From: Thermodesulfobacteriota bacterium
Lineage (GTDB): Bacteria; Desulfobacterota; BSN033; UBA1163
Assembly (NCBI GenBank): GCA_030017685.1
Contig: JASEHH010000001.1
Span: 1-64,000 of the forward strand
DNA length: 64,000 bases
Direction of reading: 5' to 3'
The translations under genes and the position numbers were made by a program. Positions 2,441 to 42,563 of this stretch are shown here, piece by piece. The notes under the pieces were generated by a model. That model did not search any database. It worked only from the letters and a program-made list of their open reading frames with translations, and was not told the DNA's origin. Position 1 is the first letter of the stretch. Every line of letters starts with the position of its first letter.

Positions 2441-4561
2441 TTTAAGGTCGATCCACAGAAATCCAAAATCATCCACTGAAATCGAACCATCCTCGCCGAC
2501 AATGACCGTGGACTCTTTTTCTTCAATGATCGCAGGACCTGGAAACTTCGCCTTCGGAGAAAGTTTGTACCGATCGTAGACGGTATAGGAGATAAAGTCC
2601 CTCGCAATCGGAGAATAAGCCGAACGTTTCCCTTTCATCGCTTCATCAAGGGACTGCCCCTTCTGTCCGATTCTGGGGAGATGCAGGAGTCGTTCAGGAA
2701 GGCTGGCCCTGACTTTGAAATTGATGAACTCCACTTCAGAATCAGGATAGGTCCTTCCATATAACTTTTCATAGACCTCGTCAAAAAGACGGCGGACCTC
2801 CTCTTTCTTCATTCCGGTAAAATCTTTTTCAGAAACCGGGACATTCGTTTCCGATCCCTGACCAACAAACCGCATATCCAGGGACCTTTCGAATCTGACT
2901 CGTTCGGAAGGACTTCGTTGTTTCCTAGGGTGGTTATTATCCTCTGAGGCTTCCTTCTGGAGAATTTGTGTCGCCTCAGATTCGAGTTCTTTGAAAATCT
3001 TTTCGATCTCATTAAAATCGGCAGCGGTTAGTGAGACTTTATGGCTTCTGAGGAGATCAAATGCGCGGGGAGCAGTGAAAAAACCCAGAGCTGACCCCAC
3101 CCCCGCATTGGGCGGAACAAGCAGACGGGGCGCTCCCAGTTTCTTGGCCAGGCCATAGGCATGCACCGGTCCGGCCCCGCCGAAAGCAACAATCGTCACA
3201 ATTTTTGGATTTCCTCCTTTTTCAGCGATATGGGTCTTGGCCGCAGCGGCCATCGTCTCATTGATGAGATCATGAATTCCCCAGATGGCCTGAAGGGTTG
3301 AAACCCCGAGAGGTTTGGCAACCTTTTCCTCGACCCCACGCCTGGCGGCCTCCCTGTCAAGTTTCATTTCACCGCCCAGAAAGTAGCTTTCATCCAGATA
3401 CCCCAGCAGGAGATCGGCATCGGTGACGCAAGGGTCCATCCCTCCTATGCCATAACAGATGGGGCCAGGTTCTGCACCGGAGCTTTCCGGTCCCACCTGG
3501 AGTGTTCCCATCCGGCCCACCTTCGCAATGCTTCCGCCTCCTGCTCCAATCTCCATCAGGTCAACGACAGGCACCTGAATGGTGAGGCCGCTACCCTTCA
3601 TAAACCTCTGAACACGTCCCACCTCGAAGGTCGGGACAACACTTGCGACACCTTTCTGAATCAGGCAGGATTTGGCCGTTGTCCCTCCCATGTCGAAGCA
3701 GAACATCTCCGAGATATTGAAGAGCCGCCCGTAATATTGACCTGCAATGACCGCGGCTGTCGGACCGGACTCAATGATTCTTACGGGAAACTCGGCTGCT
3801 GTTTCAACGGAGGTAACTCCCCCACTGGAAAGCATGATGAAGAGTTTCCCCTTAAAACCAATGGCCTCCAGCCTTCCGGCCAATTTGGAAAGGTATCTGC
3901 CTGTCAGAGGTTTCACATAGGCGTTGGTCACCGTGGTGCTGGTCCTCTCGTACTCCTTAATCTGCGGCAAGACTTGGAATGAGATGGAGACCGATATTCG
4001 GGGCGCTTCCTTTTCAATGATCTCTTTGAGCATCCGTTCATGGGCTGGGTTCTCGAAAGAGTTGATCAGACAGACCGCAATCGATTCAATGCCCTTTTTG
4101 AGAAGGGTGCGGACGACCCGCGTGGCTTCTTCTGGGTCTAATGGTTTAAGGATACTCCCATCGCTTCGAATCCTCTCATCCACCTCGAAACGGAGATGCC
4201 TCGGAATGAGAGGCTTGGGAAATTCAGCAAATACATCATAAGTTGAATACCGAATGGACCTTCCGATCTCCAGGACATCCCTGAAGCCTTTCGTGGTGAT
4301 CAATCCTGTTTTGGCTCCCTTTCTCTCGATAATCGAATTGATCACCAGGGTTGTTCCATGGATCACTTCGTCCAGGTTTTCAACAAAGCCCGAAGTTTTT
4401 TTCTCCATCTCTCTTATTCCATGTTCAACGGCATCCGAAGGATCTCTGGGGGTGGTGAGACACTTGTAAGTTTTTATTTCTCCGGTTTGATCGTTAAGCA
4501 GGACAAAGTCCGTGAAGGTGCCTCCAATGTCACAACCCAACCGGTAAACCTTATCAGCCAT
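2432..4561 (-). CDS. hyuA: Hydantoinase A/oxoprolinase-type ATPase subunit
   Basis: A 709-residue HyuA-family protein of the ASKHA ATPase fold. Phosphate-binding loops are visible: DIGGTFTD at residues 11-18, GTTLVINSIIER near 69 and FDMGGTTAK near 289; a GAGGGSIA motif follows, with the HyuA C-terminal domain at the end. The start is taken at the ATG at 4561, because GGAGG lies five bases upstream; the frame itself is open further. In the family this subunit phosphorylates the substrate (carbonyl or amide oxygen) for hydrolysis or carboxylation. It is co-transcribed with the acyl-CoA ligase upstream and hyuB downstream. Confidence 0.85.
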   Translation of the reverse strand: MADKVYRLGCDIGGTFTDFVLLNDQTGEIKTYKCLTTPRDPSDAVEHGIREMEKKTSGFVENLDEVIHGTTLVINSIIERKGAKTGLITTKGFRDVLEIGRSIRYSTYDVFAEFPKPLIPRHLRFEVDERIRSDGSILKPLDPEEATRVVRTLLKKGIESIAVCLINSFENPAHERMLKEIIEKEAPRISVSISFQVLPQIKEYERTSTTVTNAYVKPLTGRYLSKLAGRLEAIGFKGKLFIMLSSGGVTSVETAAEFPVRIIESGPTAAVIAGQYYGRLFNISEMFCFDMGGTTAKSCLIQKGVASVVPTFEVGRVQRFMKGSGLTIQVPVVDLMEIGAGGGSIAKVGRMGTLQVGPESSGAEPGPICYGIGGMDPCVTDADLLLGYLDESYFLGGEMKLDREAARRGVEEKVAKPLGVSTLQAIWGIHDLINETMAAAAKTHIAEKGGNPKIVTIVAFGGAGPVHAYGLAKKLGAPRLLVPPNAGVGSALGFFTAPRAFDLLRSHKVSLTAADFNEIEKIFKELESEATQILQKEASEDNNHPRKQRSPSERVRFERSLDMRFVGQGSETNVPVSEKDFTGMKKEEVRRLFDEVYEKLYGRTYPDSEVEFINFKVRASLPERLLHLPRIGQKGQSLDEAMKGKRSAYSPIARDFISYTVYDRYKLSPKAKFPGPAIIEEKESTVIVGEDGSISVDDFGFLWIDLKGE

Positions 4562-12923: not shown

Positions 12924-12972
12924 TAAAAGAGGGTTTTTCCCAGCTGAATATTACCTGAGAAAGGAGGATATG

Positions 12973-13233
12973 ATGGCGGCAGAAGAGATTAAGATTTATT
13001 CGACACCGACCTGACCTTACTGTAGGATGGCGAAAGAGTTTCTTTCGCAGAAGGGCTACGCTTTTACCGAATACGATGTGACCAAGGATCGAGCGGCTTT
13101 AGATGAGATGGTGAAAATATCGGGCGCTCGAAGTGTCCCCGTGATCGCTGCCTGCAATGAGGTGATGGTCGGGTTTGAAAAAAATCGCATTGAGCAGATG
13201 CTCAGTTGTATCAAACAGAGAAGCGAAGTCTAA
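12973..13233 (+). CDS. Selenocysteine-containing glutaredoxin
   Basis: Read through the in-frame TGA at 13012-13014, the frame encodes an 86-residue glutaredoxin whose active site is Sec-Pro-Tyr-Cys instead of Cys-Pro-Tyr-Cys: IKIYSTPT, Sec, PYCRMAKEFL, then the cis-proline motif RSVPVIAAC and GFEKNRIEQML. AGGAGG at 12962-12967 places the start at ATG 12973; a plain reading would begin at 13027 and lose the active site. A perfect 7-bp stem (13030-13036 with 13042-13048) with an AGUUU loop lies about 15 bases after the TGA, as expected for a bacterial SECIS element. It should reduce disulfides or glutathione adducts. Seleno-glutaredoxins are known in some anaerobes. Confidence 0.9.
13030..13048 (+). 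promoter_or_regulatory. Candidate bacterial SECIS hairpin
   Basis: GCGAAAG (13030-13036) pairs exactly with CTTTCGC (13042-13048). The five-base loop contains a G near its 5' side. Distance and shape fit SelB recognition inside the coding region just after UGA. Confidence 0.7.
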
Positions 13234-13241
13234 AAAAAGAA

Positions 13242-13316
13242 TTAGGTTAAGGTTGAGGTCAAGGTTAAGATTTATATCAATAAGTCTCAACCTAAGCCTT
13301 AACCTGAACCTTAATC
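13242..13316. repeat. Inverted hexad array between convergent genes
   Basis: The left arm is in six-base register (TTAGGT, TAAGGT, TGAGGT, CAAGGT, TAAGAT at 13242-13271). The right arm (about 13287-13316) carries the complementary units AACCT with the same spacing. The right arm forms the last codons of uvrA. It may act as a two-way terminator hairpin, though no T-run is present. Confidence 0.65.
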
Positions 13317-16066
13317 TTGTTGAGGCGTTGCCTTAAAAACTGTGCGGTAAAGGATTGTTTCGAGGCTATGATGGTTTCGAGGTCTCCCTCTACGACAATC
13401 CTACCTCCTTCTTCACCGCCTTCCGGTCCCAAATCGATGATATAGTCCGCACATCGAATCAAGTCAAGGTTGTGCTCGATCACGATGAGAGAATGGCCAT
13501 TGGAGAGGAGTTTTTCGAAGGTTTTCAGGAGAAGTTCAATATCAGCCATATGGAGTCCTGTTGTCGGCTCATCGAAGATAAAGAGATCCCTTCCCGGGTG
13601 GACCTGGCCGATGTGTTGAGCAAGTTTTAATCGCTGGGATTCCCCTCCGCTTAATGTATTGGTAGATTGACCCAGGGTGAGATAACCCAATCCAACCTCC
13701 TTCAGAATCTGAAGTTTTACGATGATCTTCTGATGGCCTTTAAAGAAGGTAAGAGCTTCTTCAACGGTCATGTTCAACACTTCTGAGATGTTGAGGTCCT
13801 GATAACGAATCTTTAAGACCTCAGGGCGAAACCTTTTTCCATCACACGCCTCACAGGTAATGATCACATCCTCTAAAAATTGCATATCCAGAACCTGAAG
13901 CCCAGCTCCCTGGCAGGCTTCGCATCGGCCTCCTTCGGTATTGAAGGAGAAATGGCGGGGCTTAAATCCATTTCTTTTAGCCTCTCGAGTTCGGGCAAAA
14001 AGGTCCCGGATATCGCCGAAGACCTTGATGTAGGTAGCGGCATTTGATCGGAGGCTTTTACCAATCGGGGATTGATTGACCAAAACGAGGTCATTAATTT
14101 GATCTAACCCTTCGATGGAATCAAAAGAACCTTTTTCAAACTCAGAATTTTCATTCCTTTTGGCTCCGGCATAGAGGATGTTATGGACCAGAGTGGTCTT
14201 TCCTGCACCGGACACGCCTGTGATGCAGACCATCAACCCAAGGGGAATACGGACATCAATTTCTTTAAGATTATGCTGGCGGGCATTGCGGATGGTCACC
14301 CACCCCGCAGGTGTCCTGTGCGATTTAATCGGAAGAAAAGGGATTCCATCCCTCAGGTATCGGGCAGTGATGGAGTCCTCTTTTTTTATAAGGGACTCGA
14401 GATCTCCTTCAAAAATGACATGGCCTCCCTCTCTTCCTGCTCCGGGACCGAGATCGATGATCGAATCGGCAGCCCGAATCATATCCGGATCGTGCTCCAC
14501 CACGACAATGGTATTGCCACGGTTTCGTAAATAAAAAAGTGTCCTGAGGAGTCGGTCTGTATCTCTGGCATGGAGGCCAATGCTCGGTTCATCGAGAACG
14601 TAGAGCGTGTCAGTCAGGGATGAGCCCAGGGCCCTGGCCAGGGTAATGCGCTGGTATTCACCGCTCGAAAGGGTACGGGTTTGTCGGGAAAGAGAAAGAT
14701 ATCCCAATCCGACATCGACTATGAAACCGAGGCGATCGTTGATCTCCTTGAGAAGGCGTTCTGCCACCTGTCGCTGAAAATCTTTTAGGGGGATGTTTTT
14801 GAAGAATTCCTGAAGTTCGGAGACAGACATTTCGCTGAGCTGGCAGATATGTTTTCCAGCCAGACGGACATAGAGCGCTTCTTCTTTGAGCCGGGACTCA
14901 TGACAGGCGGGGCAGGGGGTATAGGCCCGGTATTTGCTGAGAAAGACCCGGTAATGGACTTTATATCGTTTTCCCTCCATCCAATCGAAGAATCCCTTCA
15001 GACCTATGAATTCCCCTTTTCCATTGAGAAGGATCTCTTTCTGGTGGGATTCGAGTTCCTCAAAAGGCTTCTGAATTGAAATACGATGCCTGCGGCAGGC
15101 TTTCCACAGATACTCGTAAAGGTCCTCATAGGCAGGTGTGTTCCAGGGAGCAAAAGGTTTCTCTTTCAAAGTTTTTTTGGGGTCGGGGATAACCTTCTGC
15201 CAATCGATCCCAATAACCCTACCAAAACCCTGACAGGTTGGGCAGGCTCCGACCGGACTGTTAAAGGAGAAGAAGAGGGGGGCCGGTTCTGAAAATGTTT
15301 TTCCGCAACGATTGCAGGAATGGCTGCGGTTAAAGGTCATCCTCTTTCCGTCTTCTCCGATGACTTCAACTTTTCCGCCTCCTGCATGGAATCCACTCTG
15401 GATGGCTTCGGTGAGCCTCGATCTATTCTTTTCCTCGGATGACAAACGATCGATGAGCAGAAGAAATTGCCGTCGATTTTGGAGAAAGGAAGGAGGAAGG
15501 GTTGTAAGGTCGAGCACCTCTCCTCCTTCCCAGATTCGATAATATCCATTTTGAATCAGTTCTTTTATCTTGGCGTCTGCCTTTTCTTCTCGGGCCAATG
15601 AGACCGGACTAAGAATAGACACTTTCTTTTTAAGATATTCGCTCAGCAGGACTTCAGAAACGGTTTCAACCGTATCTCCCGAAACCTTTATCTGGCACTG
15701 TGGACAGAAAACTTCTCCAATCTTGGCGAAAAGAAGCCTTAAGTAGTCGTAAATCTCGGAGGCTGTCCCCACGGTGGATCGTGCATTCTTCACTGTGTTT
15801 TTCTGCTCAATGGCAATGGCAGGAGGGATCCCGTGAATAGCCTCCACATCGGGCCGGTCCATCTTTTCGAGGAACTGCCGGGCATAGGTGGACAGGGATT
15901 CGATATAACGCCTCTGACCTTCTGCAAAAAGAGTATCGAAGGCCAGAGTTGATTTCCCCGAGCCGGATACACCGGTTATGACCGTGATTTTGCCTCTCGG
16001 TACCCTGCAGGAAATGTTTTTGAGGTTATGAGATCTTGCGCCAATGATCTCGATGAACTTTTGCAT
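13292..16066 (-). CDS. uvrA: Excinuclease ABC subunit A
   Basis: About 924 residues, the usual UvrA length. Two ABC ATPase halves: Walker A GVSGSGKSTLAFDTLF near the N-terminus and GVSGAGKTTLVHNILY in the second half; Walker B/signature LDEPSIGLH and FDEPTTGLH. The zinc modules show CPQC, CNRCGKTF with CPTCQGFG, and CEACQGAG with CEACDGKRF. The first signature reads LSSGEYQR instead of LSGGE. UvrA recognises DNA lesions for nucleotide excision repair with UvrB. The start is taken at ATG 16066; an alternative GTG is at 16093, and neither has a good ribosome-binding site. The C-terminal tail KIKVQVKA is encoded by the hexad array. Confidence 0.92.
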   Translation of the reverse strand: MQKFIEIIGARSHNLKNISCRVPRGKITVITGVSGSGKSTLAFDTLFAEGQRRYIESLSTYARQFLEKMDRPDVEAIHGIPPAIAIEQKNTVKNARSTVGTASEIYDYLRLLFAKIGEVFCPQCQIKVSGDTVETVSEVLLSEYLKKKVSILSPVSLAREEKADAKIKELIQNGYYRIWEGGEVLDLTTLPPSFLQNRRQFLLLIDRLSSEEKNRSRLTEAIQSGFHAGGGKVEVIGEDGKRMTFNRSHSCNRCGKTFSEPAPLFFSFNSPVGACPTCQGFGRVIGIDWQKVIPDPKKTLKEKPFAPWNTPAYEDLYEYLWKACRRHRISIQKPFEELESHQKEILLNGKGEFIGLKGFFDWMEGKRYKVHYRVFLSKYRAYTPCPACHESRLKEEALYVRLAGKHICQLSEMSVSELQEFFKNIPLKDFQRQVAERLLKEINDRLGFIVDVGLGYLSLSRQTRTLSSGEYQRITLARALGSSLTDTLYVLDEPSIGLHARDTDRLLRTLFYLRNRGNTIVVVEHDPDMIRAADSIIDLGPGAGREGGHVIFEGDLESLIKKEDSITARYLRDGIPFLPIKSHRTPAGWVTIRNARQHNLKEIDVRIPLGLMVCITGVSGAGKTTLVHNILYAGAKRNENSEFEKGSFDSIEGLDQINDLVLVNQSPIGKSLRSNAATYIKVFGDIRDLFARTREAKRNGFKPRHFSFNTEGGRCEACQGAGLQVLDMQFLEDVIITCEACDGKRFRPEVLKIRYQDLNISEVLNMTVEEALTFFKGHQKIIVKLQILKEVGLGYLTLGQSTNTLSGGESQRLKLAQHIGQVHPGRDLFIFDEPTTGLHMADIELLLKTFEKLLSNGHSLIVIEHNLDLIRCADYIIDLGPEGGEEGGRIVVEGDLETIIASKQSFTAQFLRQRLNKIKVQVKA

Positions 16067-41543: not shown

Positions 41544-42524
41544 CTAAGGTGACCCCTTCGCTGATTTCATTCTCTCCTGTCTCTCCTTTAACTTCACTTT
41601 GGCAAACTCAAGGATTCCACCGGGCAAGGCGAAGATGATGATGAGGATGATCGTCCCCATGATGATAGGCCAGAAATGCGTAAAACCAAGGATGTAGGCA
41701 TGGATGAAGGTCATAATAAACATCCCCAAAACCGGCCCGAAGAAGGTGCTTGCCCCTCCCAGGATCGCGGCCATCACAGGTTCTCCGGATTTGATCCACA
41801 TCAGATAAAAGGGTGCGACAGAACGGTAAAAGGGTACCCAGAGCGCACCCGCCAGACCGGCAAAGGCGGCGGCAATGACAAAGGTGATGAGCTGGTATCT
41901 CGCAATATGGATGCCCAGAAATTCCGTTCTCTCAGGGTTTTCTCGCATGGCCTTCAGGGTGTGACCGAAGGGAGAGTTGACGATCCGCCATAAGATGAAA
42001 GCTGAGGCGATGAAGACGAGGAGAACAAAATAATAGTAGACAATTGGAATTTTGAGGATACCAGGTGGAAAGACCCCCTGGATTCCATCGTCACCGCCTG
42101 TGAAATCGTGCCATTTATAGATGATGACGAAGAGAAGCTGACCGAAGGCCAGTGTCAGAACCGCAAAGTAGATTCCCCTCAGGCGAACACAAAAGAACCC
42201 TACGATCAAACCGACAAAGCCTGCCACTCCGACTCCGGCCAGAAGGCTGAGCCAGAAATTGAAATTGACTTTGGTGATGAGCATGGCCACCGTATAGCCT
42301 CCGAGTCCGTAAAAGGCGGCCTGACCAAAAGAGAGCTGTCCCATGTAGCCGAAGAGAAGGTTGAAGCTGAGGGCGAAGAGGCTCATAATGAGCGCCTCGA
42401 TCAGTATGACCAGGTAAAAATCGGAGATCACATGGGGGGCGATGATAGCCCCGGCCAACAGAAGAATCAACCACCATCCTCTTTTGACCATCGACTCATT
42501 TTGTTCCATCTTTTGGATTACCAT
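41544..42524 (-). CDS. livM: Branched-chain-type ABC importer, permease LivM (system 2)
   Basis: About 326 residues with ten membrane helices. LivM signatures: FNLLFGYMGQLSFGQAAFYGLGGY, DFTGGDDGIQGV, RENPERTEFLGI and GGASTFFGPVLGMF. The frame is open to 42551, but the first nine residues (MRLRLRLNG) would be encoded by the hexad array at 42530; ATG 42524, with AAGG upstream, is the more likely start. Partner of LivH at 42564. Confidence 0.87.
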   Translation of the reverse strand: MVIQKMEQNESMVKRGWWLILLLAGAIIAPHVISDFYLVILIEALIMSLFALSFNLLFGYMGQLSFGQAAFYGLGGYTVAMLITKVNFNFWLSLLAGVGVAGFVGLIVGFFCVRLRGIYFAVLTLAFGQLLFVIIYKWHDFTGGDDGIQGVFPPGILKIPIVYYYFVLLVFIASAFILWRIVNSPFGHTLKAMRENPERTEFLGIHIARYQLITFVIAAAFAGLAGALWVPFYRSVAPFYLMWIKSGEPVMAAILGGASTFFGPVLGMFIMTFIHAYILGFTHFWPIIMGTIILIIIFALPGGILEFAKVKLKERQERMKSAKGSP

Positions 42525-42529
42525 ACCAT

Positions 42530-42553
42530 TTAACCTTAGCCTTAACCTCAACC
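42530..42553. repeat. Hexad array TTAACC
   Basis: Four units in exact six-base register (TTAACC, TTAGCC, TTAACC, TCAACC) at the livH/livM junction. Same word family as the array at the uvrA end (13242-13316). Confidence 0.65.
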
Positions 42554-42563
42554 TATGTTAAAT

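Follow-up and report, generated by a model that had tools for sequence, protein, structure and literature searches.

A Glutaredoxin Gene Probably Read Through an In-Frame TGA

The window, i.e. the complete stretch of 64,000 nucleotides analyzed here, contains a gene that, judged from its sequence, encodes with a probability of about 0.96 a glutaredoxin-family redoxin of the thioredoxin fold, in which selenocysteine (Sec, U14) is the nucleophile, C17 the resolving cysteine and Sec insertion depends on SelB. The sequence evidence for this reading covers the gene and its UGA, the exchange of Sec and Cys, a constraint on the hairpin that follows and the decoding machinery. The frame 12973-13233 is broken by one TGA (Table 1). 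When this codon is translated as Sec, a protein of 86 residues is obtained (MAAEEIKIYSTPTUPYCRMAKEFLSQKGYAFTEYDVTKDRAALDEMVKISGARSVPVIAACNEVMVGFEKNRIEQMLSCIKQRSEV) with the active site STPT-U-PYC. UPYC forms residues 14-17 and SVPV is present further on in the same protein; we take [C/U]PYC to be the glutaredoxin active site and VP to be the cis-Pro motif. The Sec-containing translation scored 67 bits against the Pfam family Glutaredoxin (PF00462, curated cut-off 22.9 bits), compared to 37.5 bits for the 68-aa ORF starting at the internal ATG. This agrees with the original prediction, according to which reading the TGA as Sec restores a glutaredoxin with Sec-Pro-Tyr-Cys and ordinary gene callers would report only an inactive part of it. 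The gene is a clear example of a gene shortened by standard gene calling.

Translation was assigned to start at ATG 12973; a second ATG is located at position 12970. In near relatives, the protein starts at the Met equivalent to 12973 and a GGAGG-like stretch is located in front of it, and the proposed ribosome-binding site was also found ahead of the window gene. A promoter scan revealed no promoter-like site upstream of the seleno-glutaredoxin gene, its single match falling inside the gene.

Table 1. Positions of the seleno-glutaredoxin gene, its signals and the Sec-decoding genes (numbers without prefix refer to the window, C numbers to contigs of the same genome).
Feature	Position	Strand	Basis or remark
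Seleno-glutaredoxin gene, 86 aa with U14	12973-13233	+	Stop codon TAA 13231-13233
In-frame TGA read as Sec, first position of U-P-Y-C	13012-13014	+	Aligns with TGT/TGC (Cys) codons of homologs
Shine-Dalgarno sequence AAAGGAGG, 5 nt before ATG 12973	12960-12967	+	Sequence; GGAGG-like stretches in relatives
68-aa ORF from internal ATG, without active-site U	13027-13233	+	Product that an ordinary gene caller would report
bSECIS-like hairpin with a GUU apical loop on a stem of 8 bp	13030-13048	+	Folding, shuffles, suppressed silent divergence
Long hairpin separating the convergent genes grx and uvrA	13237-13318	+	-37 kcal/mol, z -9.8
tRNA-Sec	C296:13853-13942		82 bits; ARAGORN anticodon tca (UCA)
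selA	C296:19013-20389		632 bits; contig shared with tRNA-Sec
selB	C174:49683-51572		374 bits
selD, two copies	C295 (L015) and C121 (L016)		392 and 369 bits

Conservation of the TGA Codon

Protein searches detected the gene in 16 of the 17 genomes of the order (own genome included), each time with one TGA; none of these 16 genomes carries a Cys form, and the order member G011 (98% complete) gave no match to the seleno-glutaredoxin in the protein search. The active-site codon was TGA in all 15 order loci other than the window, and orthologs with TGA at the equivalent place were found at loci L018-L031 and L062-L076. Because every one of the 15 other order genomes with the gene has kept the TGA, chance or a sequencing error is excluded as its origin. 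For 15 order-level sequences, pN/pS was 0.055 for codons 5-13, located before the TGA, and 0.085 for codons 15-86. The value for codons 5-13 indicates that the sequence ahead of the TGA codes for protein and has been conserved.

These data bear on the explanation that the TGA is a true stop codon or a sequencing or assembly error, leaving either a pseudogene or a short protein made from ATG 13027. An ordinary 68-aa ORF with a glutaredoxin match of 37.5 bits does begin there, but a restart at this site would drop the nucleophile, a TGA is found at the equivalent codon in 16 of 16 order matches from separate assemblies, purifying selection is strong upstream of it, and a Shine-Dalgarno sequence precedes ATG 12973. 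We therefore consider this explanation highly improbable compared to a Sec codon.

Exchange of Sec and Cys at the Active-Site Codon

At the level of the phylum, 395 sampled genomes were analyzed, of which 60 had a match (64 matches in all). Reading of the DNA at the aligned codon gave TGA in 43 and TGT/TGC in 21 matches and nothing else; 12 of the TGA codons belong to the own family, and the remaining 52 matches consist of 31 TGA and 21 Cys forms. Among the 31 Sec forms from other families, 29 have kept the second Cys and two have Ser in its place. The public genome collection yielded 44 loci, 21 with Sec and 23 with Cys. As anticipated in the original prediction, the Cys homologs align with Cys at the position of the TGA, with PTCPYC at L045 and L107 and PGCPYC at L033 and L040. 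The phylum matches, 43 with Sec and 21 with Cys at a single codon, offer a ready data set for studying Sec/Cys exchange and hairpin requirements. Seleno-glutaredoxins had also been described as known but rare; they are indeed in print (PMC1088965, PMC1794560, PMC13188914), but rarity does not hold for this branch, where Sec is common (43/64 phylum matches).

Genome G028 carries both forms, a Sec protein with TPTUPFC and a Cys protein with TPTCPYC (L084 and L085). In genome G050, two copies (L123 and L127) have U..S (GULFS) in place of UxxC. In-frame TAG codons in matches from G284, G375 and G394, which belong to one family, were rejected as recoded stops, because in the DNA they simply end the reading frame at the C-terminus; the active sites of these matches are GCHYC, TCHYC or GCGYC, i.e. 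they contain Cys. Similarly, the TGA in the match of G303 (L080) was rejected as a Sec codon, being located near the C-terminus of a protein with Cys in the active site. Other in-frame TGA codons accompanied by redox-like motifs were also sought throughout the window; of the 54 candidates obtained mechanically, only the one at 13012 resembled a genuine redox site on inspection by eye.

A Constrained Hairpin Downstream of the UGA

The predicted hairpin (GCGAAAGA-GUU-UCUUUCGC) has a length of 19 nt and begins 15 nt past the TGA. According to PMC1088965, the apical loop of bacterial SECIS elements is small and contains a G, and the small apical loop GUU just past the UGA corresponds to this description. 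The fold of positions 13012-13050 had a free energy of -12 kcal/mol (z -2.37 versus dinucleotide shuffles, of which 4 of 200 were as good); longer stretches containing the hairpin were not outstanding against dinucleotide shuffles (z -0.91, -0.74, and -0.04). When compared to synonymous-codon shuffles, the window hairpin gave p 0.005, and p ≤ 0.05 was reached by 15 of 20 distinct Sec sequences (the exceptions being L029, L034, L038, L039, and L068) compared to 2 of 18 distinct Cys sequences (L041 and L054). This test omits ten loci that the motif expressions missed (L048, L049, L053, L058, L063, L065, L067, L069, L074, and L076). For the Sec forms L034, L035, L036, L038, and L039 of Desulfobacteria, the minimum-energy fold differs from a hairpin of the 13030-13048 type, and for L037, also a Sec form of Desulfobacteria, only a shortened part of the hairpin forms.

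Silent divergence is the most telling result on the hairpin. In the 15 order-level Sec sequences, codons +3 to +12 after Sec had a value of 0.32 compared to 0.69 overall and ranked second among 75 windows; the 10-codon window with the smallest value begins at +2. In five Sec sequences from Desulfobacteria (L034-L038), the same codons showed a value of 0.11 compared to 0.50 overall (rank 1 of 43), whereas a Cys group of ten, hand-picked from the 23 Cys loci and mostly from Patescibacteria, showed 1.04 compared to 0.81 overall (rank 52 of 57). The SECIS-like hairpin that had been postulated directly downstream of the TGA is backed by both folding and a suppression of silent changes in the Sec but not in the Cys group. 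The hairpin pairs were kept in 88.8% of cells versus at most 71.3% for slid versions of the hairpin. Covariation, in contrast, lends the hairpin no support: one cell was changed on both sides, and 139 of 500 shuffles scored as high.

The Cys form L040 (PGCPYC; 3034-3072) keeps most of the Sec-type hairpin (GAAAGAGUUUCUUUU, p 0.12), and this remnant could reflect a recent change from Sec to Cys.

Selenocysteine Decoding Machinery

The genome to which the window belongs (G000; 326 contigs, 92% complete) was searched for the genes required for Sec decoding, the absence of which would have spoken against the prediction that this organism decodes UGA as Sec. All of them were found, namely selA, selB, the tRNA-Sec gene (selC) with a UCA anticodon and two copies of selD (Table 1). 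Both selD genes have their own in-frame TGA at the active-site motif GUA[SA]K (GUASK or GUAAK), and the stretch after each of these TGA codons also folds into a hairpin. Together with the alignment of the TGA to Cys codons, these genes bear out the prediction and, as far as gene content can tell, show that the whole apparatus for reading UGA as Sec is present in an uncultured lineage.

Reassignment of UGA in this organism, e.g., to Trp or Gly, would place a residue other than Sec in the active site. We found no point supporting it, and several argue against it: the homologs have Cys (21/64) or TGA (43/64) and never Trp or Gly, a dedicated tRNA-Sec with UCA anticodon is present along with SelA and SelB, and 23 of the 53 open frames of at least 200 aa in the window end in TGA, a mechanical count in which not all frames are genes. 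Reassignment is in our view even less probable than a true stop codon or an error. The stop codons of six Pfam-backed neighbors are TAA or TAG with no TGA among them, and for this reason these neighbors do not bear on reassignment.

With UGA read as Sec, we infer Sec insertion itself, the catalytic mechanism, the substrates and the reductant as follows. SelB and Sec-tRNA(UCA) would bind the hairpin and Sec would be inserted at UGA 13012. The selenol of U14 would then attack disulfides, or oxidized thiols, of client proteins, and Cys17 would subsequently resolve the mixed selenenylsulfide. The steps proposed for U14 and Cys17 follow the CPxC mechanism described in PMC7642778.

Genomic Context

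Among the 14 nearest loci (L018-L031), a convergent uvrA gene follows the seleno-glutaredoxin gene in 11 and a divergent DUF434/DUF5616 gene precedes it in 8, several of the remaining loci being too short on the relevant side to tell. With such convergent and divergent neighbors, the gene seems to stand alone, outside an operon, and the gene context of these loci suggested no client protein.

The long hairpin between the gene and uvrA is possibly a bidirectional terminator or a repeat element. It is made of AGGTTA-like steps, and similar steps are present at 42358-42554 and 35283. Ten matches to these steps were found versus 0.73 expected, six of them within the hairpin. Rfam matches at 13235-13321 were rejected; their scores lie far below the gathering thresholds, and they result from the long inverted repeat.

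Electron Donor

No glutathione synthesis was detected in this organism, which raises the question of the electron donor of its glutaredoxin. In the own genome, at 92% completeness, no match was found to the gshB family PF02955 or to GCS2 (PF04107). Within the order, PF02955 was present in one of 17 genomes (G007) and PF04262 in none of 17; the E. coli control was positive each time. A thioredoxin reductase was detected above its cut-off in the own genome (C111:54437-55333, 398 bits). As the known families for glutathione synthesis were not found and a thioredoxin reductase was, the gene content suggests that the electrons may come from a donor other than glutathione. The label glutaredoxin describes the fold (PF00462, 67 bits); the use of glutathione that it implies is putative.

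A variant of the preferred reading is that the Sec protein works like NrdH or thioredoxin and is recharged by thioredoxin reductase instead of glutathione. The lack of matches to PF02955 and PF04107 in the own genome, the counts for the order (PF02955 in 1/17, PF04262 in 0/17), the thioredoxin reductase and a score of 59.7 bits for NCBIfam glutaredoxin 3 (TIGR02181), below the cut-off of 90, argue for this variant. However, NrdH (TIGR02194) also remained below its cut-off (53.5 versus 85.75), the search for glutathione synthesis covered PF02955, PF04107 and PF04262 and not further routes such as PF08886 or import, in a genome that is 92% complete, and the best PDB match, 7c10, is probably a protein that glutathione reduces (PMC7642778; see below). 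On balance, we regard recharging by thioredoxin reductase as a serious option with slightly less than even chances. The members of the order are deltaproteobacterial anaerobes that appear to lack glutathione synthesis; a little more tentatively, their seleno-glutaredoxin might have become a general Sec-redoxin that uses thioredoxin reductase or another donor and in which Sec, not Cys, is fixed.

Comparison with Known Selenoprotein Glutaredoxins

The Sec protein reached the cut-off of the NCBIfam family NF041212, Uxx-star family glutaredoxin-like (seleno)protein (73.8 versus 66 bits), and scored just under that of TIGR02196, GlrX_YruB (88.2 versus 88.55 bits). Its nearest solved chain was PDB 7c10, named 'Glutaredoxin' (phmmer, E 5e-16), which is probably cGrx1 of Clostridium oremlandii; a VGFD stretch (VGFE in the translation given above) was noted as common to 7c10 and the window protein.

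Glutaredoxin is listed with 10 sequences in the selenoprotein-family table of PMC1088965 (Sargasso Sea) and with three in a table of PMC1794560, which counts the Deltaproteobacteria among the groups rich in selenoproteins. As a UxxC protein with a biochemical reference, it appears in PMC13188914 and PMC9312934, the former giving WP_010943784.1 in a table as a UxxC selenoprotein glutaredoxin. Our literature search found no paper on a selenoprotein glutaredoxin in Syntrophaceae. Since UxxC seleno-glutaredoxins are already in print (PMC1088965, PMC1794560, PMC13188914), the window gene is a further member of a described selenoprotein family and not a new family. With the known UxxC proteins it has in common the glutaredoxin domain, Sec as first residue of UxxC, a hairpin after the UGA and Cys homologs; it adds a further lineage, and at the level of the published descriptions no distinguishing feature was found. 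Compared to the UXX-star 1 family, given as UxxT in PMC13188914, the window protein retains the second Cys (UPYC). Like the window protein, cGrx1 of C. oremlandii is a native selenoprotein with a U(C)PxC site; according to PMC7642778, cGrx1 is reduced by GSH and was proposed to reduce Sec-MsrA.
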